IMG/VR virus record: IMGVR_UViG_3300044991_001427
Span: 1 to 51,444 of that record
Length of the DNA stretch: 51,444 bases
Source of the DNA: a virus
Direction: 5' to 3' (one strand)
Each line of letters begins with the position of its first letter. The stretch's first letter is position 1. Shown here piece after piece: positions 4,874-40,968 of the stretch. The notes under the pieces were generated by a model, which was not told the origin of the DNA, did not search any database, and worked only from the letters and a program-made list of their open reading frames with translations. Made by a program: the position numbers and the translations under genes.

Positions 4874-4916
4874 TGGCGGGTGCGAACTGCGGGACTTAGC
4901 TTAGGTGGAGCAGAGC

Positions 4917-5162
4917 ATGGCGAGAAGTCGTCAAGGCACGCGTTCGAGTCGCGTAGTCCCGGCTAAGATCACGAGGCTCGATAGGCGGCACATGCGGAAA
5001 CTGGACCGGAAAATAGCGATGCTTGACCACGCAATTTGGATCAACCAAATTTGCCGTCCGTCGCTCGCCATTTCACAGCGCCGAGAGCGGGACAAACTCG
5101 ATGACACGAGACGGTGGCTTAGGAATTGGATGAAGAATCCAAGCAGAACAGAAACATCATGA
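4917..5162 (+). CDS. Small basic hypothetical protein
   Basis: 81 aa, about a quarter Arg plus Lys, helical (RLDRRHMRKLDRKIAMLDHAIW). ATG 4917 is preferred over GTG 4905 because GGTGGAG is correctly spaced. The stop overlaps the next start (ATGA at 5159). Possibly nucleic-acid binding; no family recognised. Confidence 0.5.
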   Translation: MARSRQGTRSSRVVPAKITRLDRRHMRKLDRKIAMLDHAIWINQICRPSLAISQRRERDKLDDTRRWLRNWMKNPSRTETS

Positions 5163-22943: not shown

Positions 22944-24245
22944 GTGGCGGATGCAAGTCTGAAAATCATCTTGGTGGACGAAGGCGGGCCGGCGGCTGGC
23001 CCAACCGCCGCGCCGTCAATCAATCCGCCATCGCCAATCCAGATGCCGCCGGGGCCGCAGTCGAGCCGCACGGCAGGCCCGCAAGCGCAAGCGGCCAATC
23101 AGACGCCGCAGACGTTGGGACGCCACCAGGCGGCAACCAGCGGCCCTACCGTGGCGAGCGCGGCCGCCGACTTGGCTACTCACCTTGCCAAGGCGTCTGG
23201 ACTTGGCGGGCTCGTCGGAACAGTCCGGACTGCTACCGGGCTGATCGGCGAATTCATGCGGTTTACGAAGACGGTCGCCGGTCCGGGTGCGTCAACGTTC
23301 GATGTTCACCTTCCGGAAATGCCGCAGCATGTTCCAGCGGGGCAAAACGCGACATGGACACCGCCGATTCCGCGATTGCCGCGAATGCCGACGCAGGCCC
23401 CGGTTGCTCCGGTTCCGTCCGCTGCTCAGTCGGCTACAGCAGCGACAGCATCGCGAGTCGCCGCAACGGGGGCGGCAAGCGCAGCCGGCTCCGCTGCTGG
23501 CACGGCGGCGGCGGGATCCGCGGGGGCAGCGGCTGGCGCTGCAGGCAGTCTGGCTGCAGCCGCTGGGCCGGTCGGAATCGCACTGGCCGCCGTGGCGGTT
23601 GCGGCAACCGCGGCCGCGATCGGCGTCAAAGCGTTCTTCGCCGTGGTCAAGGATCAAGCCCAGAAGCTGGAAGGCTACAGCGGCGCCGTGGCAATGGCGA
23701 CTTCGGAGTCCGAAATCCGCGGTGAAATGGCGATGATGCGGAGGGCGCAGCGGATCGGGCCGGACGTTGCCCGGTTCGAGCAACTGCGAGGCAAGGCGTC
23801 TGAGAAGCTGGCGGACGTGACGACGGAAATCCTCAACCAGTTGTTCGAGATCGTCAACAAGTTCGAGCCGATGATTTCCGCGGGTGTCGAAATCTTGGGG
23901 TTACTTCCCCCGGCAATCGAAGTCGTGGGGGAAGCGGTGCAGGTGAATTTTGACCTGTTGATGGGCGACTTTGCCGGGGCATGGCAGGACACGAAAGAGG
24001 GCGCCGAAGCGATCAAGAAACTCGGCAAGGCGGTCAAGGACTTCATCGACGACAGCAAGCAGCAAGACGTGGTCCAAGACCCGTTCATCCAGGAATTCTT
24101 CGACAGCCTACCGCAGAGGCTGGCACAAGACAGACGCGGCCCCGCGGCGCCGGCCGGACGGCGGTTGAATGGCCCGCGGCCAATGGACCCAATCGTCCAG
24201 GCGTTCGGGCAGGCAAACGCGGCGGTAGCAGGGGGAGGCCCGTAA
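22944..24245 (+). CDS. Short tape-measure-like protein
   Basis: 433 aa from GTG 22944. A Pro/Gln-rich N-terminus, then an Ala-rich stretch (about residues 145-240) ending in the hydrophobic PVGIALAAVAVAATAAAIGVKAFF, then long helices (EKLADVTTEILNQLFEIVNKFEPMISAGVEILGLLPPAIEVVGEAVQV). This layout of low-complexity helix plus hydrophobic segments is that of tape measures, which set tail length and may cross the host membrane during ejection. At 433 aa it predicts a rather short tail. The next gene starts directly after its stop. Confidence 0.6.
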   Translation: MADASLKIILVDEGGPAAGPTAAPSINPPSPIQMPPGPQSSRTAGPQAQAANQTPQTLGRHQAATSGPTVASAAADLATHLAKASGLGGLVGTVRTATGLIGEFMRFTKTVAGPGASTFDVHLPEMPQHVPAGQNATWTPPIPRLPRMPTQAPVAPVPSAAQSATAATASRVAATGAASAAGSAAGTAAAGSAGAAAGAAGSLAAAAGPVGIALAAVAVAATAAAIGVKAFFAVVKDQAQKLEGYSGAVAMATSESEIRGEMAMMRRAQRIGPDVARFEQLRGKASEKLADVTTEILNQLFEIVNKFEPMISAGVEILGLLPPAIEVVGEAVQVNFDLLMGDFAGAWQDTKEGAEAIKKLGKAVKDFIDDSKQQDVVQDPFIQEFFDSLPQRLAQDRRGPAAPAGRRLNGPRPMDPIVQAFGQANAAVAGGGP

Positions 24246-26223: not shown

Positions 26224-26471
26224 CCTTTTGGTTTCATCTCGACCCGCGGACCTTGACGCCGGTCGAGAAACTCGGTTTTCTCGCCAACCTCGAGCATTGC
26301 AAGGCCCAACAGACGATCCACTTGGGAAATTACGATCCATGCGACCATCGAGGCGTCTACCGATTATGGAAGGACGCCTACGGAAAAGAGGGCTTGGCGC
26401 GTAAGGCCCAGTCATTGGCGGCCGAAGCCAAAATGGAGCGGGATTGCGACGCGGCCCGCGGGAGACGATGA
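25894..26471 (+). CDS. Predicted -1 frameshift fusion (G-T-like)
   Basis: Ribosomes slipping one base back at 26193-26199 would join 102 residues of the zero frame to 90 residues of the -1 frame, giving about 192 aa. The downstream part (RTERDAELAFWFHLDPRTLTPVEKLGFLANLEHCKAQQ...NYDPCDHRGVYRLWKDAYG) has protein-like composition but no usable start codon close to 26200, which argues that it is reached by frameshifting. A Shine-Dalgarno-like GAGG (26176-26179) lies 13 bases upstream of the slip, a known stimulator position. The stop overlaps the portal start by ATGA. Confidence 0.65.
26193..26199 (+). promoter_or_regulatory. -1 programmed frameshift slippery site A AAA AAC
   Basis: The heptamer sits in the correct phase (codons CTA AAA AAC). 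GAGG lies 13 bases before it. A 7-bp stem CTCGACC/GGTCGAG at 26238-26267 lies downstream, farther than usual stimulators, so its role is doubtful. Confidence 0.7.
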
Positions 26472-29400
26472 TGTTTGACTGGCTGAAAACAGGATTGCAA
26501 CGGCTCTCTTTCTATCCCGCCGGCTACCAGGCGGTGACAGCCGATCCGCAGGCCAAAGAGCGGGAACAGTTGGTCGACGACGTGCCGAAGACGGCCGGAT
26601 ACCAGGGGCTCGGGTATCATCGCTGGGGACTGTACCCAAAGAACCTTCCGCAGTTTACGTTCCTCACGGTCCAGCAGATGCTGCTGGAACCGACGATACG
26701 GCTCGGGCTTGCCATGCGGGCGGCCCCGCTCTGCTCGCTGCAGTGGGGATGGAAGGACGGCGACACGTGGCAGGACGGAATCCAGGCAGCGCAGCCGGAT
26801 GTAGCCGAGTTCGTGGAGCGGCAACTCAAGCGGATCTGGGCGAACGACCTGGACGCGGTTCTGTCCGCGCAAATCTGGGGCTGGTCGGCCGGAGAAGTTA
26901 CGCATCGCATGACGGGCGCGGGGCAGGTTGAGATCGATCGTCTTTTGCCACGACACGCCAATGATGTTCGGGCAATGTCTCGCCAGTCCAAGCTGATCGG
27001 CTGCCGCGTGACGCGGTGCGCGACGATCGCCGGCGGATCTGTGGATCTGGAGTTCCCCAAGTGCTGGTGGCATGCGTTCGCGCCCGAGGCCGGAATGCAC
27101 TATGGCCTGTCCGTGTTGATGGGGGCCTATAGCCCGTGGTGGGACAAGTGGATGGACGGCGGCGCCCTGGACGTGCGACGGTTGTTCATGCACAAGGACG
27201 CGTATGCAGGTGCCGACTTGACCTATCCCGAGGGCATGCAATTCATTCCTGGCAAGGGTGAGGTTCCAAACCGTGACATTGCACGCGAGATCGTGGAACA
27301 AGTCATCGCCGGCGGAGTGACGACGCGGCCCGCGAGCCTGGGGCCGAACGGGGAAGAATTGTGGAAACTGACCCGCGCCACGGTGGCAAGCAGTCCGACG
27401 CATATCCTACAGTACCCCAAGGATTTGGACGTGGAAATCCTCCGGGGGCTCGAAATCGCGGACGACGTTCTCGCCGTGGACGGCTCCGGAAGCTGGGCCG
27501 GAAAACGGGTGCCAATGGCTGCCTTCTACGCCGGGCTCGACCGCTGGGCGTCTGCCGTGGTGCGCGACCTTGACGAGCAGGTAATTCGACCGCTGGTCGA
27601 ATTAAATTTCGGCGAGGAAGTCGAATACCAGATCGGACACAAGCCGCTTGCCGAGCAGGCGATGGAGCAGCAACAGGACGACGGCAGCAAACAACAACCG
27701 GGGGCCGGCGGCGATTCCTACGCGGATCTGTTCGGCGGTCCTCAGCCGGGGCAACCGGGCCGGCCTGCCGCACAAGTCCCGCCAGCGCAGCAGCCTGGCC
27801 AGCGAATGAGCCTCCGCGAGCAAGAGGCGGTGTCATCCGCCGTTCAGCGGGTTATCCGGCTGCGCGGCGGGCCGGAGGCCAGCGGGGAACGCTGGATCAC
27901 CATCGGGGCACAGCACGGCGACGACGGCGAGAAACACGGCGGGTTCCCCTGCAATATCAACGCCGATGGCGAGATCATCGCCGGCGGTCCGAAGGGGATG
28001 CGCGGCAAGAAGGTCTCCGAGGTCTACAAGCACTTCCGCAAGGCTCGCAACACGCCGCAGGCGAAAGAGAAGCGGTATCAGGGGCTGGTGAAGAAACAGG
28101 CAAAAGCGTGGCAAATCAGCCCCGCCGAGTACCAGCAATTCGCGGACGAGGTCCACAAGGAGAAGTTGGCCCACCATCAAGCGAGGGAATCCGCTAAGGC
28201 TGCGGCCCGGAAATCGTTGGGCGTGACCGCTGCAGACGTCAACCGCTGGGAGAACCAGGGGCTCGACTACTCGAGCGCAAAGCTGTCAAAGTATGAGTTT
28301 GATCGGGCCGGGCAATCGCTGGCCAGCCAATACCGGGATCTGGGCTGGGGTGGAGGTTACGGCGACGGGCAGGACGAGGGCGGGCACGACGCTAAGCTCT
28401 GGGAACTGTTGAAGGAAGGCAAGGTTGACCCGCCCAGCCGGCACAGCGAAGAGTTTCACGCTGACGTTGACGAATACCTGCAATATCTGGCGAGCCAATC
28501 CGGCGGACTGGACGACGCGCCGGACGCCGGGGATACGGGTTTCGACTTCGGAGCCAACGCGGACGACGACGAGTTCACGCGGTTCGGCCTGGAAGTCTTG
28601 CGGCTGGCTCGCCAGAAGCACATGTTAACCGAGGGCCGCGCCGGCGGTGACAAGAGCGGTACGCCGGACCAGAAGCGCATCAAGTGGATCACCATCGGCG
28701 GAGGCCATGAGGAAGGAAAGAAGCACGCCGGAGGGACACCGATCGGGCTGAACGAAGCCGGGGAAGTTGTCGCCGGGGGGCCGGCGCACTTGAAGGGCGT
28801 CCATATCTCGGACGTGAAAGAGCATTTCGACGACATTCGGGCCGGGGGCGAGGGGAAGGCGAAGAAGGAAGAGGATACGCGCACTCCGCAGCAGGCACGC
28901 GAACAAGCGGCCGAAAAGCGAAAGGCTGAACAACAGGCAAGTGCAGAAGCCAAGTATGGCAAGCCTCGCCCCCTGTTGGCTGACATGCCGATTGACGACA
29001 TGCTGGCCGAGCGAGATAAGTTGATCGGCGCGCCAGAGCAATACCCAGGACACAGACGGATGATGCAGGCCAGAATCCGCGAACTAAACGGAGAATTGAC
29101 AAAGCGCGGGCACGTCGAGAAGTCCGATTCCGACATCGTAAACGAGGACTTTGCAGACAACTGGGGCCGGGTCATGGGCGACCCCGACGGTGCGAGCGAC
29201 AAGGACATAAGCCGCGCCATGAGTTACGGCGACGATTTGCGAGACCACTTGACGAAGCAGGGGAAGCACGACGCCGCCGCATCGGTTGTTTCTGAAATCG
29301 ACAACCTGAAACGGATCTTGCGGGAGCGAGAGCGGAACGCGGCAAATCCGGCCCCCAACCCGATCCACACGCCGCCCGAGCCGGACGCGGCCAAGACGTT

Positions 29401-30580
29401 CCTGAACGGCGACGAAGCCGAGTACGTCGGAACGTCCGAGCAAATCAGCGGCGGGACGTTCTTTCACGTCAAGATGCTGGAAGGAAAAGACAAGGGCAAG
29501 GTGAAGGTGACGTCGCGAGCGCCGGACGGCAGTAATCCCCAGATGGACGCGCGCAAGGCAGAGCAAGAGGCAGGCCGCAAGGACACTGAAGCCAAGTTCA
29601 AAGCCTTACGTGAAAGCGGGGAGTACGACCAGATGCCGCCGTCGAAGCCCGCCCCCGCCATCGACCTATTCGGCAACGCCATCAAGCCCGCCGCTCCGAA
29701 AGCCGAGGCCATCCAGGATCTGGGCGGCAAGCAACAAGGGCTGTTCCCGAAGAAGGGACTGCCGGGGCAGATGAACATGTTTGCCGAGGCCGGGGTGCCG
29801 GATGAGATGTTGCCGGCGCATTTGCGGAAAGAATCCGAGAAAATTCCTCAAGTCCCGCTTGCATCCAATCCGAAACCGGATATACTGCAATCAGCGGCTG
29901 GCAGTGTGCCGGACGCACAGCAGCAACCGAAAGCGGAGGGCGGGAAGATGGTTGGCGACCAACTAAAACAGATTCAAGCAGCCGGACAAGCAGAGACGCT
30001 TACTGTTCGCGTGGAGCACAGCAAGGGGTACACTGGCAAGCGGTCCGGAAAGAGCTATCTTGCCCGCGTGAACGGCATGAGCAAGGAATATGGTCTTGAT
30101 CGCGAATTCTTAGAACCAGATGATCGCGATTATGGTGATTCTCAACTGTACAAGAAGAGTAAAGGTTCTTGGCACGAAATTCATACGATTCAACCTGATG
30201 GCGGAGTCTACGACATCGCGACTCACGGAGAATCCGTGTATCGCGTGTATTTTCCGAAGGTGAAGGACGGAAAGGTTCAATTGGTGTCGTCTACCGTTCA
30301 ACGCGACGAATTGAAGCAGGCGATTACCCTACTGAAACACGCCGGAATGGACGTTGACGAGTTGCCAAAGGCAATGTCCGACAGCAAAAAAGAAGACGGG
30401 ACGCTGATTGATCGCGTGAGGCGATGGACTAGACACCACATGGATTCCGAAGTTGCGGAGGCATACGAGGGCGACGTAGAGGCCATGCGATCGCACGTAA
30501 GTGATGCGGGCTGGGTGGCAAGGCAACGCAAGGGGTACGTCGCTGCCGTTCGCCGGGCACTCGGGGAAACCGAAGCATGA
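26468..30580 (+). CDS. Portal protein fused to a giant polyvalent-type C-terminus
   Basis: 1370 aa from ATG 26468 (or 26471). Residues 1-400 fit DUF935/gp6-like portals: IWGWSAGEVTHRM, LLPRHANDVRAM, YGLSVLMGAYSPWWDKWM, LEIADDVLAVDGSGSWAGKRVPM. Portals are normally 400-550 aa. The remaining 900 residues hold two copies of a module beginning WITIG (Trp476 and Trp740) and continuing KHGG/KHAG...GEI/EVVAGGP...GKKVSEVYKHF/GVHISDVKEHF, separated and followed by charged coiled-coil sequence and QQGLFPKKGLPGQMNMFAEAG. This WITIG module is typical of phage polyvalent proteins, thought to be ejected with DNA. The next two genes are ATGA-coupled. Confidence 0.78.
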   Translation: MMFDWLKTGLQRLSFYPAGYQAVTADPQAKEREQLVDDVPKTAGYQGLGYHRWGLYPKNLPQFTFLTVQQMLLEPTIRLGLAMRAAPLCSLQWGWKDGDTWQDGIQAAQPDVAEFVERQLKRIWANDLDAVLSAQIWGWSAGEVTHRMTGAGQVEIDRLLPRHANDVRAMSRQSKLIGCRVTRCATIAGGSVDLEFPKCWWHAFAPEAGMHYGLSVLMGAYSPWWDKWMDGGALDVRRLFMHKDAYAGADLTYPEGMQFIPGKGEVPNRDIAREIVEQVIAGGVTTRPASLGPNGEELWKLTRATVASSPTHILQYPKDLDVEILRGLEIADDVLAVDGSGSWAGKRVPMAAFYAGLDRWASAVVRDLDEQVIRPLVELNFGEEVEYQIGHKPLAEQAMEQQQDDGSKQQPGAGGDSYADLFGGPQPGQPGRPAAQVPPAQQPGQRMSLREQEAVSSAVQRVIRLRGGPEASGERWITIGAQHGDDGEKHGGFPCNINADGEIIAGGPKGMRGKKVSEVYKHFRKARNTPQAKEKRYQGLVKKQAKAWQISPAEYQQFADEVHKEKLAHHQARESAKAAARKSLGVTAADVNRWENQGLDYSSAKLSKYEFDRAGQSLASQYRDLGWGGGYGDGQDEGGHDAKLWELLKEGKVDPPSRHSEEFHADVDEYLQYLASQSGGLDDAPDAGDTGFDFGANADDDEFTRFGLEVLRLARQKHMLTEGRAGGDKSGTPDQKRIKWITIGGGHEEGKKHAGGTPIGLNEAGEVVAGGPAHLKGVHISDVKEHFDDIRAGGEGKAKKEEDTRTPQQAREQAAEKRKAEQQASAEAKYGKPRPLLADMPIDDMLAERDKLIGAPEQYPGHRRMMQARIRELNGELTKRGHVEKSDSDIVNEDFADNWGRVMGDPDGASDKDISRAMSYGDDLRDHLTKQGKHDAAASVVSEIDNLKRILRERERNAANPAPNPIHTPPEPDAAKTFLNGDEAEYVGTSEQISGGTFFHVKMLEGKDKGKVKVTSRAPDGSNPQMDARKAEQEAGRKDTEAKFKALRESGEYDQMPPSKPAPAIDLFGNAIKPAAPKAEAIQDLGGKQQGLFPKKGLPGQMNMFAEAGVPDEMLPAHLRKESEKIPQVPLASNPKPDILQSAAGSVPDAQQQPKAEGGKMVGDQLKQIQAAGQAETLTVRVEHSKGYTGKRSGKSYLARVNGMSKEYGLDREFLEPDDRDYGDSQLYKKSKGSWHEIHTIQPDGGVYDIATHGESVYRVYFPKVKDGKVQLVSSTVQRDELKQAITLLKHAGMDVDELPKAMSDSKKEDGTLIDRVRRWTRHHMDSEVAEAYEGDVEAMRSHVSDAGWVARQRKGYVAAVRRALGETEA

Positions 30581-30777
30581 CGCCCCACACTGACACCCTA
30601 CGCGCCGCCCTGCTTGCCAGCGGTCGAAGCCAGTACGACCTGTCCCGCGAAACGGGCGTTGCTCAAAGCCGGATTTCCGCCCTGCTGTCCGGCGGGGGTT
30701 GCAACTGGGAGAACGGCTGCAAGTTGGCGGCAGCGGTCGGGATGGAATGGAAGCCGCGGAGGAAGTCCCGTAAATGA
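30577..30777 (+). CDS. Small Cro/C1-type HTH protein
   Basis: 66 aa, ATGA-coupled to the portal gene. LRAALLASGRSQYDLSRETGVAQSRISALLSGGG fits a Cro/C1 helix-turn-helix (helices at about residues 10-40); the C-terminus is basic. A DNA-binding regulator between two head genes is unusual; it could tune late transcription or bind packaged DNA. Its stop overlaps the gpF-like start. Confidence 0.65.
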   Translation: MTPHTDTLRAALLASGRSQYDLSRETGVAQSRISALLSGGGCNWENGCKLAAAVGMEWKPRRKSRK

Positions 30778-31802
30778 AACGCCGCGCCCGCCCAACAATC
30801 ACGGACCTGATCATCCGCCGGACCATCATGGCGAGCGAGGAAATCGCCGCCGAACTGCGCGAGCGACTGGCCAACGCGATCACCGACGCCGACGCCCGCC
30901 GGCTGGGCGTGCAGGGCGTCTTGGATCTGGCCCGCGACATCCTCCGCCAGTACGAGCCGCTTCTCGCCGAACTGATCGGGGACAGCGAGTTGCACGGCTG
31001 GGTGGCCGGGTACAGCTACACCGCCGAGCGGCTGCCGCCGTGGCTGCAGGACGTAATGCGGCGCCCTGGACGGCCGCCGGGTGAGCCGCCCAAGATCGTT
31101 TTGCCGGGCCTGCTGGGCGGCGGGGATCCGGAACTCCGGTTCCCCATCCTCGACAAGGCGGTCCAGTCGCTCCAAGACCGCGACATCCTGACGCGACCCC
31201 AGTACGACACGCTTTCTGCCGAAGCCCGCCAGCGTGTGTTCACGGTGGCCGGCGACCTGACCACGGAGACCATTGACGCCATCCGCGAGGAATTGGCCGC
31301 CGACATCGACGAGGGGGCCAGTTTGACCGGGTTTCGCAACCGGATCAAAGACCGGCTGGACGGCTCGCCCATTGGCAAGTGGCACTTGGAGACGGTCTAT
31401 CGGACCAACGTGCAATCCGCCTTCCGGGACGGCCGGGAATCGCTGGCGAATAATCCAATCGTCGCCGCGGTGTTTCCATACCAGGCTTACGAGCCGATCC
31501 ACGACGGGCGGGTACGCGACGAGCACGCCGAACTGGAGAAGCTGGGGCTGAACGGGACGAACGTCTACCGGCGGGATGACCCGATGTGGAACTACTTCAC
31601 GCCGCCGTGGGGCTACAACTGCCGATGCGGTGTCAACCTGCTGACCGTCGACGCCGCAGCCCGCGCCGGGGTGGCCGAGGCCAAGCTGTGGCAATCGACG
31701 GGCCGGCCGCCGGAGGTTCCCGAGCATCGGTTGCAGGCGATTGACTTTCGGCCGCCGGTGGGATTTGGGACGCGGGGCAGGCAAACCGTAGGGGCACTTT
31801 AA
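30774..31802 (+). CDS. Mu gpF-like head morphogenesis protein
   Basis: 342 aa, ATGA-coupled. The C-terminal third has the gpF/SPP1 gp7 signature: VYRTNVQSAFRDGRESL, PYQAYEPIHDGRVRDEHAELEKLG, WNYFTPPWGYNCRCGV, with the closing CRC motif. N-terminal 150 residues are helical. Members bind the portal and a few copies enter the capsid. The gene follows the portal, as in Mu, although both are displaced from the terminase. Confidence 0.85.
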   Translation: MKRRARPTITDLIIRRTIMASEEIAAELRERLANAITDADARRLGVQGVLDLARDILRQYEPLLAELIGDSELHGWVAGYSYTAERLPPWLQDVMRRPGRPPGEPPKIVLPGLLGGGDPELRFPILDKAVQSLQDRDILTRPQYDTLSAEARQRVFTVAGDLTTETIDAIREELAADIDEGASLTGFRNRIKDRLDGSPIGKWHLETVYRTNVQSAFRDGRESLANNPIVAAVFPYQAYEPIHDGRVRDEHAELEKLGLNGTNVYRRDDPMWNYFTPPWGYNCRCGVNLLTVDAAARAGVAEAKLWQSTGRPPEVPEHRLQAIDFRPPVGFGTRGRQTVGAL

Positions 31803-34252
31803 TGGACTACCACGTCCTGAAAATCGACGGCGAGAACTGCCTTTCCCCGCGGGAACTGGCCGACGCCGCGAACGAGCAGGGATTCCCAGCGGACTTCTGG
31901 GGCCGGGCAAACTCGATCCGCCTGCCGATCGGGTTCGAGCCGGGGACCGCCCATATCGTTGTCCCGCGCGCCACGTGGGACGCCATCGACGCCGACGGGA
32001 TCCACACACTGACGTGGCTGATGAGTCGCAACGGGACCGCGACAACAACGACGTTTTTCAACTGGGTGCTGTGCGATTCTCGCATCCAGGGCATCGACGG
32101 GGACGAGAAAGCCGCCTATTTGCTGACGCTTCGCGACGCCCGCCAGATCCTGAAACACGCCAAGCTGATCAACCAGGGGTATAACGTTTCCGTTCCCACC
32201 CCGTGCGGCTCGGACGTGGGCAGCGGGGGCACGTTCGGCTGCGACAAGCGGTATCTTCCGGAAACGCTCAATGGTGGCTCGCCGTGGGCGTGGCAAGAGA
32301 TCCTAGTCGATCTGTGGGCCAGATTGCCAGCGGCACTTGCTGGGGCCTGTCCGGTGCTGCCCTGGGCGCCGCCCCACCTGCCGGACAGTTGGCGATTCCA
32401 CGGGATTCAAGTTTGGCAGGCAATCCAGATGCTGATGGACGCCTGCCAAACGACCATCATGCCGACCGCTACGGCGTGGGAATGTGTCAATTTCGGGACG
32501 GCGCAGGCTACGCCGTGGGCGGCGCTGACCGGCCGCTTGCTTCGCGACGAGAAGCCGAAAGACCCTTGCCGGTGCATGTTGCCGGAGTCCGTCCGCGTGA
32601 CGTTTCCCGCGCGATTGTGCGACCCGTGCCGATGGGATACGCCATCGGCCTGGGAGGACGAGCCGGTCTACATGAGCGCCGCCTACGCCACGGGGCAGAC
32701 CTGCAGCGAGGCCAGCAGCGAACTGGGCGTGCGGTACGACCTGATCGCCGAATACGTCTGCGATGGGACGGTGGCCAACGCGACCGACCTGGAGACGGCT
32801 GCCGCCGCCATTGCCGCCCGCATCGCAACCAGGATGAGCGTGGCGCGGGATCTGGCCAAAGACCATTCCGGGATCTGTCACGAGGTGACCTTCGGGAGCA
32901 AGATTCACGAGATCGTCTTCCGGGACTACGGCGACGACAACGGATGTATCACCGAGGCTTACGGTTACCAGACCTGGGGCCTGCCGCGCGAGGCGTGGAC
33001 GAAGCCCGTTCGCGACTACCCGGATTGCGACCGCTCGATTTGGGTGCAAGCCGTGGATTGCATCCAGCTTGGCGTAGGCGGTGCTGTTTCCGTGGTCCGG
33101 TACGACGCCACAGCGGCCGCCTGGGTTCCCGACGCCGGCGCCTGCGCGGACGGTTCCGGGACGGTGATTGTGTGCGATCCAAACTGCTGGCTGTTCGCAC
33201 TGCCGGGGGAAGTCTTCCGCGTGACACGCGACGGGTGCGCGGGGGCGGATTGCTGGCTGCCGGAATCGCCCTACGGCTTGCGACGGAAGGTCCGTATCGA
33301 AAGCCGGCTGGGCTGCGGGGAGACAGGAACGGCTACCGTCTTGGAGCCGGGAGACGGAGGCAACGGGTCCGGGGATTGCTCGCCATCGCCGGCCGGATGC
33401 ACGGCGGGATGGGCAAAGTCGCTTTGTGAGATCGAAGTCTGCAACGACGGGAATAGGATTATCGCCTGTGACGTGCCATGCGAGGACGCATGGGTGGAAG
33501 CGATTCCAGGCACGTGCGTCTGGCTCGCCACGCCGGGGCAGCGGGCGACGATAGCGACCGCGGTGCTGACCGGCGAATTTTGCGGGGACGATCCGGCGGC
33601 ACTGTCCGGATTCCAAGCCCGCGATGTTTGCGACTGGACTCCCGAGCCGACGCCGGACACCGCCGGGGCAGACGTCAAGCGGCTGGGCTGCGTTGGGGAC
33701 ACGGTCCTGCTGTACTGGGATGAAAGCGACGACGTGTGCGGCTGGAAAGTGCTGTCAACGCCTGTCCATACGTTCGATCACATGTTCACCCGCGCCGAGT
33801 GCGAGGAAGCCGGTTGTTTGAAACTCTACCAGACCACAGGAAAAGTAGGCGTTGAACAATGCCAGTCTTGCGAGACCGAGAGCGACGCCGGGGTTCCGGT
33901 CGCGTTTATTGACGTGGTGACCGGGGCCAGCGTGACCTACGACAGCGGCAGCGGTTCCGGATGCAACACGGACGGCGGCAATCTGGCAATCTCTCTGCAG
34001 ACCAGCCGGATATGCGTCGTCTGTCCGACTGGGGAAGGCGGCAGCCATACGATCGGGACGCCAGTGACGTTTCCCTTGGAACTTGAGGAGGTCGAGGCGG
34101 TCATTGACGCCGAGCCGATTTGCGACCCGTGCTTTGGAATCCGTCAGACGGTCCAGAAGTTTCATGCGTTCTGCCTGAAAACGTCGGAGGTAATTGACGC
34201 GGAATTGTGCGACTGCTACGAGTGCCCAAAGGAATCCGGGTCAGGGAGTTGA
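31802..34252 (+). CDS. Very cysteine-rich large virion-region protein
   Basis: 816 aa; the ATG shares its A with the preceding TAA. I count 47 cysteines (about 6%), spread as CxC, CxxC and isolated residues, with a C-terminal cluster ELCDCYECPKESGSGS. The first 140 residues are an ordinary folded domain poor in Cys; the rest is beta-rich and repetitive. Such content implies many disulfides or bound metals, so the protein may be finished outside the cytoplasm or in the virion. Position after head genes suggests a tail-tip or surface structure. No family recognised. Confidence 0.65.
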   Translation: MDYHVLKIDGENCLSPRELADAANEQGFPADFWGRANSIRLPIGFEPGTAHIVVPRATWDAIDADGIHTLTWLMSRNGTATTTTFFNWVLCDSRIQGIDGDEKAAYLLTLRDARQILKHAKLINQGYNVSVPTPCGSDVGSGGTFGCDKRYLPETLNGGSPWAWQEILVDLWARLPAALAGACPVLPWAPPHLPDSWRFHGIQVWQAIQMLMDACQTTIMPTATAWECVNFGTAQATPWAALTGRLLRDEKPKDPCRCMLPESVRVTFPARLCDPCRWDTPSAWEDEPVYMSAAYATGQTCSEASSELGVRYDLIAEYVCDGTVANATDLETAAAAIAARIATRMSVARDLAKDHSGICHEVTFGSKIHEIVFRDYGDDNGCITEAYGYQTWGLPREAWTKPVRDYPDCDRSIWVQAVDCIQLGVGGAVSVVRYDATAAAWVPDAGACADGSGTVIVCDPNCWLFALPGEVFRVTRDGCAGADCWLPESPYGLRRKVRIESRLGCGETGTATVLEPGDGGNGSGDCSPSPAGCTAGWAKSLCEIEVCNDGNRIIACDVPCEDAWVEAIPGTCVWLATPGQRATIATAVLTGEFCGDDPAALSGFQARDVCDWTPEPTPDTAGADVKRLGCVGDTVLLYWDESDDVCGWKVLSTPVHTFDHMFTRAECEEAGCLKLYQTTGKVGVEQCQSCETESDAGVPVAFIDVVTGASVTYDSGSGSGCNTDGGNLAISLQTSRICVVCPTGEGGSHTIGTPVTFPLELEEVEAVIDAEPICDPCFGIRQTVQKFHAFCLKTSEVIDAELCDCYECPKESGSGS

Positions 34253-34255
34253 CGC

Positions 34256-34735
34256 ATGGTAGCTGTCATTCGCCTGAACGGTGCGTTCGTCCGCTACAAC
34301 GGCAAGTTTGCGATCGATCCAGATCTGTGCGATTGCGATTGTGATGAGGGTGAATGTTGCTGCGACAACCTGACCGATCTGTATATCGAGGCCACGGTTG
34401 GCAGTTGCTACGTTAAGGCGAAAATGACGCGTGAGGCGGACGGCAGTTACGGAGGATTTCTCGTTCGACTATGGTCAACCAGCCTCGACCTTGGAGGATC
34501 AACGCTGCGAGCCTACGTTCACTGCTTTAGCCAAACATGCGCACTTGGGTTTTACTCAGATACATGCAGCGGACTGCCACCTGGATTCGACCCGTATGAC
34601 GTAGGATCTGCAATTTGGGATAAGTTGTCGAATTGCGAATTGCCGCAGACGTTCAGCCGGCCTGGGGCATGCAATAACGCGACGTGCGGGACTGGGCAAA
34701 CGCTGTACTTTACCATCGGGGAAACGGCATTCTGA
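34256..34735 (+). CDS. Second cysteine-rich protein
   Basis: 159 aa with 13 cysteines (8%). The cluster DLCDCDCDEGECCCDN at about residues 23-38 resembles the LCDC-type tail of the gene just upstream, so the two may be related or bind each other. The remainder is a beta-rich domain (LYIEATVGSCYVKAKMTREADGSYGGFLVRL). Probably co-expressed with the 816-aa protein. Function unknown. Confidence 0.6.
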   Translation: MVAVIRLNGAFVRYNGKFAIDPDLCDCDCDEGECCCDNLTDLYIEATVGSCYVKAKMTREADGSYGGFLVRLWSTSLDLGGSTLRAYVHCFSQTCALGFYSDTCSGLPPGFDPYDVGSAIWDKLSNCELPQTFSRPGACNNATCGTGQTLYFTIGETAF

Positions 34736-34746
34736 CCGGGGACACC

Positions 34747-36783
34747 ATGACAACGGCGAGACAGAGGCGGGCGGAACTGCGGGGCAATCAGGCGACGCCG
34801 GCCATTGCGATGCGAACGACCGCACGCCAGCGGATGAACGGGACGCCGGCGGTTCTGAAAACGACGCCATCCGTCTGCAAACATCTCGGGAAGCAGGTCG
34901 GCTCCCTCGTCTGCAAGTGCTCCGGAAAGGCCCGAATTTGGGAATGCTCGCATCCCGAGACGCCGCACGGCTACGCCATCGCGGTCCCTCCGCGGGAGTG
35001 GATTGACGGCCCGATCAAGTTCAACGACGGGAAGCGGTCCGAGGCAATCTACCTGCCGTGGCCGTGGTCCGCAGATAAGCCGACGCCGGACTACGGAATC
35101 CTGACCTGTGACAGGTGCCCAAATCGCGAATTGGCGGACCAGACCGCGCCCGCGCCGCATCCGCTTGCGGTCGCCGAGTGGTTCGCCCAACCGGGCAACG
35201 TGGCTTACGGTGACCAGATCGGGCCCGAGGTGCTGAACGCTGGAGCCAGCGTTTGCGTCGTGACGGGCTACACTCCTGAGTCGGAGGTTTGGCGGCAGAT
35301 CGGCGAGCGAACCAGTTGGACCATGCGGGACTACTGCCGGCGGCACGGGTACGGGTTCCGGTGCCACACGCGGGACTTCGAGCCGGGAGTCCATCCGAGT
35401 TGGTCCAAGGTCAAGTTCCTCCGCGAGGCCCTGGAATCCCACGAAACCGCCCTTTGGCTGGACGCTGACGCGCTGATCACCAACCCGCACATACGCATCG
35501 AGGACATCCACCAGGGACCGGAAGAACTTGCTCTATGCTCCGATTCCGTGGCGTTGAACTGCGGGGCAATCATGCTGCGCCGCTCGCCGTTCGCGTCCTG
35601 GCTGCTGGCCACGCTGTGGGCCCGCCGCAACGACGGCAACCGCCTCTGGGAACAGGACACCATGCAGCAACTGATTCACCACGGCGAAATCGGCGCCCAT
35701 CTGCGGATCTATCCGCCGCGGACGTTCAACGCCTGTGTGCCGTCGAAAGCCGGTCGGTTCGGATTCGCGGATCGGTTCGACTGGCGTCCAGGGGACTTCG
35801 TTGCCCACATTTACCACACGGGCGGGCACGCGGAGCGGAAAGTTCCGCACGTCGCCGCGGTCATGCAGGCCGCGACCGCGGGGATCGATCACGATTTCAT
35901 CGAGCAATCGCGCGAGTTCCTGGAATCACTACCGCCGTTCGACGCCGGGCGGTTCAGCGGCCGCGGGATCGTGACGTCCGCCGGCGGCCCCCGGCTGCAA
36001 CTCAATGCCTATGTCATGCTCCGTTTGCTCCGGTCGCTCGGATGCAAACTTCCTGTCGAACTCTGGTACGACGGTGATCGAGAGCGAGATGACGGGTTCG
36101 CCGCGATGGTGGCCCCGCTGGGCGTGCGGTGCGTTGACGGTCGGGCGCAGGGGTTCACCTACCAGAAGCCGGCCGGTCCGATCACTCACGCCGGGCGGCA
36201 TACCTGCAAGGTTGATTTGGCCCTGGGACTGAACCTCAAGGTCTACGCGGTGGCGTGGTCCTCGTTCGCGGAGGTACTGTGGATTGACGCCGACAACTGC
36301 CCAGTGCGCGACCCGTCTGGACTGTTCGACGATCCGGCTTACACGGAATCCGGTTCAATACTGTGGCCAGACCCGGCGCCGAACTATGGTCCCAACCTGG
36401 CCGCGTTCGGCACGGGGGGGTACTTCCGGGAGGGACTGGAGACGGGCCAGATGCTCTTTCACAAGCCCAGCACCTGGCCGGCGCTGGCTCTGAACTGCTG
36501 GTACAACGAGCGGGCCGAGTACACCTATCAGTATTCGTGGACCGACAAGGACACGATTCTGGCGGCCATGCTTCGCGCAGGGCTGCCATTGAACGTGGCC
36601 CCGCTACCGCTGGCCGAGAGTCAGGTCTACGGGCAATTCGGGCCGGACGGCGGGCTGTCGTTCTGTCATCGCGTCGGCGCTGCGAAGTGGAAGCCCGGGC
36701 CGGACAACGCCAGTCCGGAGTGGTTCCTGTGGCACGAGCGATGCCAGCGGTTCGTTGACGAATACCAGGCGGCGATGCAGTAG
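34747..36783 (+). CDS. Zinc module-GT34-like-GT71-like double glycosyltransferase
   Basis: 678 aa. Three parts: (1) residues about 40-130, a cysteine-rich zinc-ribbon-like module (VCKHLGKQVGSLVCKCSG...ECSH...LTCDRCP); (2) about 165-390, a GT34-type (GMA12/MNN10-like) transferase with VCVVTGYTP, HPSWSKVKFLREAL, the metal-binding DAD at 239-241 in LWLDADALITN, WEQDTM and GDFVAHIYHTGG; (3) about 410-640, a GT71-type (MNN1-like) domain with LRSLGCKLPVELWYDGD, a second DAD at 514-516 in LWIDADNCPV and TGQMLFHK. Both domains keep their nucleotide-sugar motifs, so both may be active. Likely substrates are phage surface proteins or host glycans (inference). It ends the late operon. Confidence 0.8.
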   Translation: MTTARQRRAELRGNQATPAIAMRTTARQRMNGTPAVLKTTPSVCKHLGKQVGSLVCKCSGKARIWECSHPETPHGYAIAVPPREWIDGPIKFNDGKRSEAIYLPWPWSADKPTPDYGILTCDRCPNRELADQTAPAPHPLAVAEWFAQPGNVAYGDQIGPEVLNAGASVCVVTGYTPESEVWRQIGERTSWTMRDYCRRHGYGFRCHTRDFEPGVHPSWSKVKFLREALESHETALWLDADALITNPHIRIEDIHQGPEELALCSDSVALNCGAIMLRRSPFASWLLATLWARRNDGNRLWEQDTMQQLIHHGEIGAHLRIYPPRTFNACVPSKAGRFGFADRFDWRPGDFVAHIYHTGGHAERKVPHVAAVMQAATAGIDHDFIEQSREFLESLPPFDAGRFSGRGIVTSAGGPRLQLNAYVMLRLLRSLGCKLPVELWYDGDRERDDGFAAMVAPLGVRCVDGRAQGFTYQKPAGPITHAGRHTCKVDLALGLNLKVYAVAWSSFAEVLWIDADNCPVRDPSGLFDDPAYTESGSILWPDPAPNYGPNLAAFGTGGYFREGLETGQMLFHKPSTWPALALNCWYNERAEYTYQYSWTDKDTILAAMLRAGLPLNVAPLPLAESQVYGQFGPDGGLSFCHRVGAAKWKPGPDNASPEWFLWHERCQRFVDEYQAAMQ

Positions 36784-38989: not shown

Positions 38990-39152
38990 TCTGTCCCGTG
39001 CCGGGTGACAGACGCATGCGTCTTTCACGACCGGCTGCCTGGGGCTGAACGACGAGGCCCCCAGCCGCCCGCAAGGGCCGCTGAGAAACAGGAGCCTGCA
39101 AGTACGCGGGCGTTTTCACGGATTGTTCCCATTCCAACTTGTGAGCGCAGCT
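38990..39152 (+). other. Intergenic region with palindromes
   Basis: 163 bases without a convincing gene. It holds a bulged inverted repeat TCTGTCCCG/CGGGTGACAGA (38990-39012), a perfect palindrome GACGCATGCGTC (39011-39022) and CTGGGG...CCCCAG pairing further on. Probably operator or mRNA leader of the ParB-like pair. Confidence 0.4.
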
Positions 39153-40022
39153 ATGCGCAGGAGTTCTGTCTTGAGCCAAGAACTTGCACCTGTTCCCAAC
39201 GGCAAGGCCGTCTCGAAGGTAGAGAAAAACAATTGGATGAGGCTTGGAAAGCAAGGAAAGTTCGAGTTGATTCCGAAAGGCGAAATTAACATCGACCACG
39301 CCTACCAGCGAGACAAGACAAGCCAGTCACGAATCCTTTCAATTGCCCGCGACTTCTCTTGGCAGGCGTTCGGCGTGCTGCTGTGCGTCCGCAGAGAAGA
39401 CGGAACCGTCTGGGCGTTTGACGGGCAGCACCGCAAGCTCGCCGCGGACAAGCGGTCCGACGTGTCAAAGCTTCCGTGCTTGGTGTTCACTGCCGACGAC
39501 TTGGAGCAAGAGGCGCGGGCGTTCCTCTCGTCAAACACGGTTCGCGGAGTTGTCGTGTCGCTCGACAAGTACCGCGCTTTGCTGACATGCAAGGATACGA
39601 CCGCGCTCATGGTGCAGGAAATGGTCAGGAGCACTGGACACCAGATCGGACGCACAACCACCGGAGTCCGATGCGTCGCTTTCCTGATGAAGGCCATGCA
39701 ACTCGACCAGGACACGCTTTTGAAAATCTGGCCGATGGCCGCAAGGATCGCGCAGGATCACGCCATCACGGACGAGCTTGTCAAGGCGCTGTTCACGACC
39801 GAAAGGGCGATGCGACGCACTGGGCAGGGAAGCCTGAGCGACAAGCACAACCAGGAAGCCATCTCGAAGCTGAGATACTACCAGTTCGACGAGTCCAACA
39901 AGAAAGCCGCGGCGTACCTTGGCGGTGGAGAGAAGACGCACGCGAGGGCACTCGTTGACTGCTTGAACTTCCGGCGCACAAAGAACCGCATCGACTTAGA
40001 CAAGGTGCCAAGCAATGCGTGA
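39153..40022 (+). CDS. ParB/DGQHR-fold protein
   Basis: 289 aa from ATG 39153 (an in-frame TTG at 39123 is the alternative). AYQRDKTSQSRILSIARDFSWQAFGVLLCVRREDGTVWAFDGQHRKLAADKRSD carries the ParB-like core with the DGQHR motif also found in DndB-type proteins; the CTP-binding ParB/Srx fold is implied. The C-terminal 150 residues are helical. It overlaps the next ParB-like gene by eight bases, so the two are coupled. Possible roles are DNA partition, transcription control or shielding of phage DNA; none is proven. Confidence 0.7.
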   Translation: MRRSSVLSQELAPVPNGKAVSKVEKNNWMRLGKQGKFELIPKGEINIDHAYQRDKTSQSRILSIARDFSWQAFGVLLCVRREDGTVWAFDGQHRKLAADKRSDVSKLPCLVFTADDLEQEARAFLSSNTVRGVVVSLDKYRALLTCKDTTALMVQEMVRSTGHQIGRTTTGVRCVAFLMKAMQLDQDTLLKIWPMAARIAQDHAITDELVKALFTTERAMRRTGQGSLSDKHNQEAISKLRYYQFDESNKKAAAYLGGGEKTHARALVDCLNFRRTKNRIDLDKVPSNA

Positions 40023-40968
40023 TCCGATGTCCGGTATCGTCCGCAAGTTAAAGCCTGGATTCTGTGAGCTTCCGATAGACAAGATCAGGTCAGACGGTGG
40101 ACGGTCGATAGACAAAAAGCACGTCAAAGCCCTGTCCGAGTCCATCGCAGTGGAAGGCCTGTTGTGCCCGGTCTCAGTGACCACGGAATCCAAGATTGTT
40201 TGCGGACGGCACCGGCTTCATGCCTGCAGGCTACTCGGCTGGAAAAAGATACCGGCTGTCGTGGTCGGCTTCGACGCGATACACGCGGAGCTGGCGGAGA
40301 TTGACGAGAACGTCGTCAGGAAAGACCTGTCAGCCATCGAGCGGAGCAAGGCACTTGCCCGTCGCAAAGAGCTGTACGAGACGTTGCATCCAGATACAGT
40401 CAAGGGTGGGGACCGCAAGAGTGAAGACGCAGAAATCAAACGGACAACTTGTCCGTCTGTTCCTTCATTCGCCGCCGACACCGCCGCCAAGACTGGTCAG
40501 TCGGAACGGCAAGTACGGCGCGACGTTGCAATCGGAATTGGAGTGCCTGACGACGTGGTCGCTGTAATAGCCGATACGAAGCTGGCCAACAACAAAAAGC
40601 AGTTGACCAAACTGGCGAAATTGGACGCAGACAAACAGCGTGCAGTTGCTAAGAAGATCGCCGACGGCGCCGCCAGCACAGTCACGTCGGCACTGAAAGA
40701 ACATCATCCGGTCGCCGACGAAGTTTGCGACGACGACCAAGCCGCCGACGGGGGCGCGGGGCCGGTCACAAGCGGCCCGCTCGCCGGAATGGAACCGGAC
40801 CCCGTCGGCGTTGATTCTGAGCCGACCACTTGTGAAGCCTACACGACGCGACTTGTCGAGTGGACCCGCAAGCAGTTCTGCAATATCGACGGACTGACAT
40901 GGGGCCACGCCATGAGTGTGTGGGCGAGACTCTCTGAGTTGAGCGCAGACCAACTTGACGCGATGTAA
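40015..40968 (+). CDS. parB: ParB-like protein with HTH (KorB type)
   Basis: 317 aa. The N-terminal nuclease-like/CTPase domain is clear: LPIDKIRSDGGRSIDKKHVKALSESIAVEGLLCPVSVTT, then VCGRHRLHACRLLGWKKIPAVVV (the GxHR motif) and IDENVVRKDLSAIERSKALARR. A helix-turn-helix-like stretch (AAKTGQSERQVRRDVAIGIGVP) follows. Family members bind parS sites and slide as clamps, or repress transcription. No ParA is in the window, so a regulatory or DNA-organising role is more likely than plasmid-type partition. Confidence 0.82.
   Translation: MRDPMSGIVRKLKPGFCELPIDKIRSDGGRSIDKKHVKALSESIAVEGLLCPVSVTTESKIVCGRHRLHACRLLGWKKIPAVVVGFDAIHAELAEIDENVVRKDLSAIERSKALARRKELYETLHPDTVKGGDRKSEDAEIKRTTCPSVPSFAADTAAKTGQSERQVRRDVAIGIGVPDDVVAVIADTKLANNKKQLTKLAKLDADKQRAVAKKIADGAASTVTSALKEHHPVADEVCDDDQAADGGAGPVTSGPLAGMEPDPVGVDSEPTTCEAYTTRLVEWTRKQFCNIDGLTWGHAMSVWARLSELSADQLDAM

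Follow-up and report, generated by a model that had tools for sequence, protein, structure and literature searches.

Why would a tailed phage carry, among its structural genes, a single protein with two glycosyltransferase domains, and on what would such an enzyme act? The question is raised by an open reading frame at positions 34747 to 36783 (plus strand) of the window, as we call the whole stretch of 51,444 bases analysed here. The frame runs unbroken from an ATG at 34747 to a stop at 36783, encodes 678 amino acids and is preceded by an RBS-like GGGGA just 5' of the start codon. Its GC3 is 0.80, N-terminal part included, and flanking genes are similar. A Pfam search of the protein returned a GT34 and a GT71 domain in tandem, both above the curated cut-offs, behind an N-terminal Cys/His module, and no TM-like segment was found in the 678 residues. 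The first-pass annotation had proposed this tandem and placed a DAD motif at residues 239-241 and another at 514-516; both positions were exact in the translation, and profile and fold searches likewise gave two GT-A-type domains, so that the outcome named as refuting the proposal, a lack of GT-A folds, did not arise. It is near certain that the gene encodes a glycosyltransferase.

The GT71-type domain (about residues 405-678; 35959 to 36780, plus strand) matched PF11051 with 93.1 bits against a curated cut-off of 22 (E 2.5e-26). Its AlphaFold2 model (pLDDT 88, pTM 0.90) was closest among solved folds to MNT2, a GT71 mannosyltransferase of yeast (7xjv; Z 21.7, rmsd 2.8 over 254 residues), with the next rows at Z 18.4 or below, and MNT2 was also reached independently by a profile of GT71 rows (E 3.4e-10). 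The DAD motif (36286 to 36294, plus strand) stands in the context WIDADNCP, and DADN (514-517) together with a later D, E and H was invariant over the 25 bacterial and phage GT71 domains of alignment A7. A second conserved acidic motif, DKD at residues 600-602 (36544 to 36552, plus strand), aligned with GDKD of MNT2, D600 being invariant in the same 25 rows. By profile score, nearest fold, DxD motif and later acidic motif this is a GT71 domain.

The GT34-type domain (about residues 151-390; 35197 to 35916, plus strand) matched PF05637 in two stretches (64.1 bits against a curated cut-off of 23, E 2.1e-17), and its DAD motif (35461 to 35469, plus strand) lies within WLDAD (237-241), where the second D, D241, was invariant in the five rows of alignment A6. 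When compared by profile with solved structures, the GT34 rows of phage and bacterial relatives led to plant xyloglucan xylosyltransferases (E 5e-12; 9e-12 for XXT1). AlphaFold2 modelled the first 401 residues with a pLDDT of 57 overall and mostly 70-89 in the core (190-330). In this moderate-confidence model the fold closest to the core was A64R of PBCV-1 (2p73; Z 20.2, rmsd 2.7 over 189 residues), followed by XXT1 (6bsu; Z 18.3, rmsd 3.2 over 221), after which matches dropped to Z 13.8 or below. By the title of entry 2p73, A64R has a part in glycosylating the major capsid of PBCV-1; the GT34 profile gave no sequence match to 2p73, and the likeness to A64R is one of fold only. Profile score, XXT1-like fold and DxD motif identify the domain as GT34. 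A recent duplication of one domain as the source of both was ruled out, as the two gave no BLAST match to each other.

No PHROGs family matched the protein. Near copies of its full length were absent from INPHARED, where a single weak GT34 match was obtained (tblastn, E cut-off 1e-5), from viral contigs, which held single-domain relatives only, and from genome contigs. The order Cys module, GT34, GT71 occurred only in this protein across the collections searched, and our literature search found no report of a phage GT71 together with GT34.

The N-terminal module (residues 44-124; 34876 to 35118, plus strand) contains six cysteines arranged as C44xH46, C56xC58, C67xH69 and C121xxC124. These four Cys/His pairings compare with a mean of 0.9 in shuffles of the same stretch (p 0.005), while the number of cysteines by itself is unremarkable in this protein (p 0.43). 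Residues 1-150 had no Pfam match, AlphaFold2 pLDDT was below 50 across most of the module, making the model unreliable there, and a search with the module alone gave no match in viral contigs. The Cys/His pairs of the proposed zinc module are real; zinc binding by them is putative, and a metal-binding role plausible. A resemblance to the neighbouring Cys-rich proteins had also been suggested and was rejected, since comparison with the products of 31802-34252 and 34256-34735 gave no significant similarity (best E 1.2). These two neighbours, of 816 residues (31802 to 34252, plus strand) and, directly upstream of the glycosyltransferase gene, 159 residues (34256 to 34735, plus strand), are Cys-rich and belong to no known family, with no match to virion proteins in Pfam or PHROGs. 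Both are candidate acceptors, and the larger is also a candidate virion protein.

The surrounding genes are those of a phage, with a terminase (12982), a capsid decoration gene (16722), a major capsid gene (17647), neck genes, a tape-measure-like tail protein of the upstream structural module (22944 to 24245, plus strand; phrog_167, E 7e-7) and a Mu-type portal (26444) on the same 51 kb. The portal frame (26444-30580, 1378 residues) has its Mu-type portal domain at residues 78-395 and is extended at the C-terminal side by about 950 residues, in which the pattern ITIG..H..G.KH.G....N..GE..AGGP describes two similar stretches. A gene for a Mu F-like minor head protein (30774 to 31802, plus strand; PF04233, E 4e-11; phrog_220) starts a co-directional run; the 816-residue gene overlaps its 3' end, the 159-residue gene starts 3 bases past the 816-residue gene, and the glycosyltransferase gene starts 11 bases past the stop of the 159-residue gene. 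With one overlap and gaps of 3 and 11 bases, the glycosyltransferase gene closes a tightly packed run within the structural block. A terminator 3' of the gene was considered and ruled out, the candidate not rising above shuffles. A tRNA-like gene, its anticodon undetermined by ARAGORN, was found at 4890-4963.

Beyond 39 kb lies a DNA-metabolism block (39-50 kb) of ParB-like proteins, helicase, DNA methylase and primase-polymerase, in which two ParB-like genes stand side by side (39123-40968), the first weakly related to DUF6551. The separation of the glycosyltransferase gene from this block bears on whether the enzyme might glycosylate hypermodified phage DNA as a defence against restriction. 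Virus-encoded DNA-hypermodifying glycosyltransferases exist (Pyle 2024, as cited in PMC12619734), but the scanned frames showed no gene for base hypermodification and the closest solved relatives of both domains work on glycans, so that we hold a role on DNA to be most improbable.

Two relatives of the window were available. One, from another metagenome (IMGVR_UViG_3300046006_002273, L077), is protein-identical over the 12 kb compared, and the other (L076) has a capsid protein 81% identical; in both, the DNA compared stops short of the position of the glycosyltransferase gene. The window terminase is 52-55% identical to those of two Planctomycetota genomes, the best Verrucomicrobiota match being 34%. 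A Planctomycetota host is suggestive only, because one of the two terminase loci comes from a short contig of a MAG, and other genes of the window were absent from both.

Among viral contigs GT71 was found as a separate gene. Low-GC phages carry it clustered with GDP-mannose dehydratase, GT69-type and GT92-type genes, a separate GT34-like gene and a DegT aminotransferase; GT71 and GT34 are separate genes in L003, and phages L089 and L092 have a GT34 gene on its own. On a high-GC contig (L008/L018) a tape measure gene and a Ser/Cys-rich 639-residue protein are followed by GT9, a methyltransferase-like gene, a DxD protein, a sulfotransferase and GT71, while in L009/L019 GT71 comes after a tape measure gene and a Cys-containing 445-residue protein. 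No structural protein common to the window and either of these contigs was detected, and the position of GT71 after tail genes therefore recurs in three backbones. The GT71 domain alone had no match in INPHARED.

Among about 85,000 genomes scanned there were 56 loci, most of them in Verrucomicrobiota and Bacteroidota and many of them GT9-GT71 fusions. GT34 is rare in bacteria (2 of 296 Bacteroidota and 3 of 289 Verrucomicrobiota genomes). The two families had been described as best known from fungi and plants, which is accurate for the characterised enzymes and not as a limit, both occurring in bacteria as well, GT71 widely. An origin in Planctomycetota was unsupported by GT34, with matches in 0 of 392 genomes, a zero that is no proof of absence as the control matched nowhere either. 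Side by side with these loci we noted a 1311-residue GT9-GT71-GT71-GT34 protein of a Cyclobacteriaceae MAG (L041, 3577-7512), which adjoins a DUF6603 gene and an unassigned 743-residue protein starting MANSSSSSG, and a GT71 fused to an Anp1/GT62-type domain (L062, 5821-8421). The latter, from MAGs with the label Actinomycetes, is a further case of a bacterial protein that unites two families of fungal mannan synthesis. Three Planctomycetota MAGs (L048, L049, L081) have GT71 genes beside Ser-rich proteins, one of which in L048 is an RHS-repeat protein; GT9 adjoins GT71 in L048 and L049, and the GT71 gene of L049 has an in-frame TAG. These Planctomycetota loci, judged from gene content, suggest O-glycosylation of Ser-rich surface proteins. 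As a general rule a Ser-rich, mucin-like neighbour did not hold, being present in L008, L048, L049 and L081 and absent from the window.

In the GT71 tree the window sits on a long branch of 3.42 changes per column, with a Planctomycetota MAG (L020) as its nearest row, and the tree did not single out a donor lineage. Such a branch, and the want of a close relative of the full architecture in the collections searched, would fit a passenger gene taken from a bacterium and inactive or useless to the phage. Both DAD motifs and the other invariant GT71 residues have been retained, however, in an unbroken frame whose codon-position GC pattern is that of the flanking genes, and we regard an idle passenger as very improbable.

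With two intact GT-A domains and no membrane segment, the protein is predicted to be soluble and to add two sugars. The two domains with their DAD motifs, the fold of the GT71 part, the fold match of the GT34 core and the place of the gene are best accommodated, in our view, by a soluble two-step glycosyltransferase that would place consecutive sugars on a virion protein using host sugar nucleotides, a reading to which we assign a probability of about 0.52. It would be one cytoplasmic, metal-dependent chain with two catalytic domains, in which the GT34-type and GT71-type domains would act consecutively to supply two sugars of one glycan. Each would hold its donor, a host-made nucleotide sugar, via its DAD motif and a divalent cation; no nucleotide-sugar synthesis gene was present among the window frames scanned, from which we infer that the donors come from the host. 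The most likely acceptor would be a virion surface or tail protein of the same operon, glycosylated in the cytoplasm of the host either ahead of assembly or while it proceeds, and a possible role of the Cys/His module is that of a small metal-binding domain through which the enzyme docks on this acceptor.

The two domains might instead not work in sequence, one being catalytic and the other acceptor-binding, or each serving a different glycan. The evidence for each domain is of fold and motif, and L003 shows that phages can keep the two families as separate genes. Against this, the metal motifs are intact in both domains, the fused viral enzymes A064R and A111/114R act on one glycan, and GT71 and GT34 are fused in a bacterium too (L041); we consider non-sequential action improbable.

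That the target is the virion we put at about even odds. A virion acceptor is favoured by the position of the gene in a structural run, by the finding that GT71 follows tail genes in unrelated phages too and by the precedent of A064R. A Ser/Thr-rich, mucin-like protein such as L008 and L049 have is missing from the window, so that the acceptor is not evident, and since bacterial loci without phage genes in sight carry the same families, the case for a virion target depends chiefly on where the gene lies. A glycosyltransferase gene that follows tail genes can also be cargo that acts on the host. The enzyme could accordingly be imagined to alter host surface glycans (capsule, LPS or an S-layer-type glycoprotein), blocking superinfection or changing the receptor, its location among structural genes being chance. 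Serotype-changing phage glycosyltransferases are known (PMC12619734), bacteria commonly have relatives, which presumably make glycans of their cell surface or proteins, and the phage clusters of GT71 and GT34 with GDP-mannose dehydratase and DegT aminotransferase fit either purpose. Yet no membrane anchor, flippase or lipid-carrier transferase adjoins the gene in the scanned subset of window frames, and the gene belongs to a late structural run, away from early or lysogeny genes. We think action on host glycans possible but rather unlikely.

If modification of the virion is correct, phages of uncultured bacteria would sugar-coat their particles using enzyme families that have been studied in the Golgi of yeast and plants, and the versions found in phages, bacteria and giant viruses would have a common plan of several transferases per chain that add consecutive sugars of one glycan. 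GT71 would then be a marker for glycosylation cassettes beside tail genes, and the protein offers a compact cytosolic enzyme for testing the evolution of virion glycosylation. An extended version, which we find doubtful, would have the metal-binding module dock on a Cys-rich virion protein of the same operon, where the two GT-A domains would build a mannan- or xyloglucan-like disaccharide, as part of a wider phage family of GT71 cassettes that follow tail genes and include GT9, methyltransferase and sulfotransferase. A single phage polypeptide would then glycosylate protein in the cytoplasm of a bacterium by chemistry of the Golgi type.

Bacterial GT9-GT71 proteins of Verrucomicrobiota and the L041 protein resemble the window protein in having GT71 inside chains of several glycosyltransferases, L041 with both GT71 and GT34. 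L041 differs in that GT71 precedes GT34, GT9 is present, no Cys module was matched and no phage genes are in view. We know of no bacterial GT71 multi-glycosyltransferase fusion that has been characterised.

GT71 and GT34 both serve Golgi mannosylation in fungi (PMC5225481). Yeast MNN1/MNT2 (GT71) and MNN10/MNN11 or plant XXT (GT34) share Pfam families and DxD motifs with the window protein, but are separate eukaryotic Golgi proteins, whereas here the domains are fused, soluble and without a TM segment, and donor or linkage is not transferable. Mycobacteriophages (Che8 gp110, Corndog gp38, Myrna) encode glycosyltransferases that add glycans to proteins of the capsid and tail tube (Freeman 2023, as cited in PMC11256854 and PMC12363180); these are different phages, and tblastn of the window protein matched no mycobacteriophage at E 1e-5.

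A close parallel is with the chlorovirus PBCV-1, whose A064R and A111/114R are likewise soluble viral proteins with several transferase domains per chain (PMC9614988, PMC7826918). A064R has two rhamnosyltransferase domains and a methyltransferase that work sequentially on the capsid N-glycan (PMC9614988), and its first domain, of GT34-like GT-A fold, is the best PDB match of the GT34 part described here. That domain was assigned UDP-glucose from its crystal structure and later shown to be a rhamnosyltransferase (PMC9614988), so donor identity cannot be read from the fold. A064R and A111/114R build successive sugars of a glycan on the major capsid protein, the counterpart of which is proposed here from sequence and models. 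A064R belongs to a eukaryotic giant virus, its second domain is of another, cation-independent family and its third is a methyltransferase; neither a GT71 domain nor a Cys module is reported for A064R or A111/114R, and the window protein has both. The first-pass idea of an undescribed virion glycosylation system is accordingly narrowed: virion glycosylation in mycobacteriophages, multidomain glycosyltransferases in chloroviruses and bacterial fusions of GT71 and GT34 are already known, and what is new, as read from the sequences, is that a tailed phage has the Cys module-GT34-GT71 architecture and that GT71 repeatedly follows tail genes.
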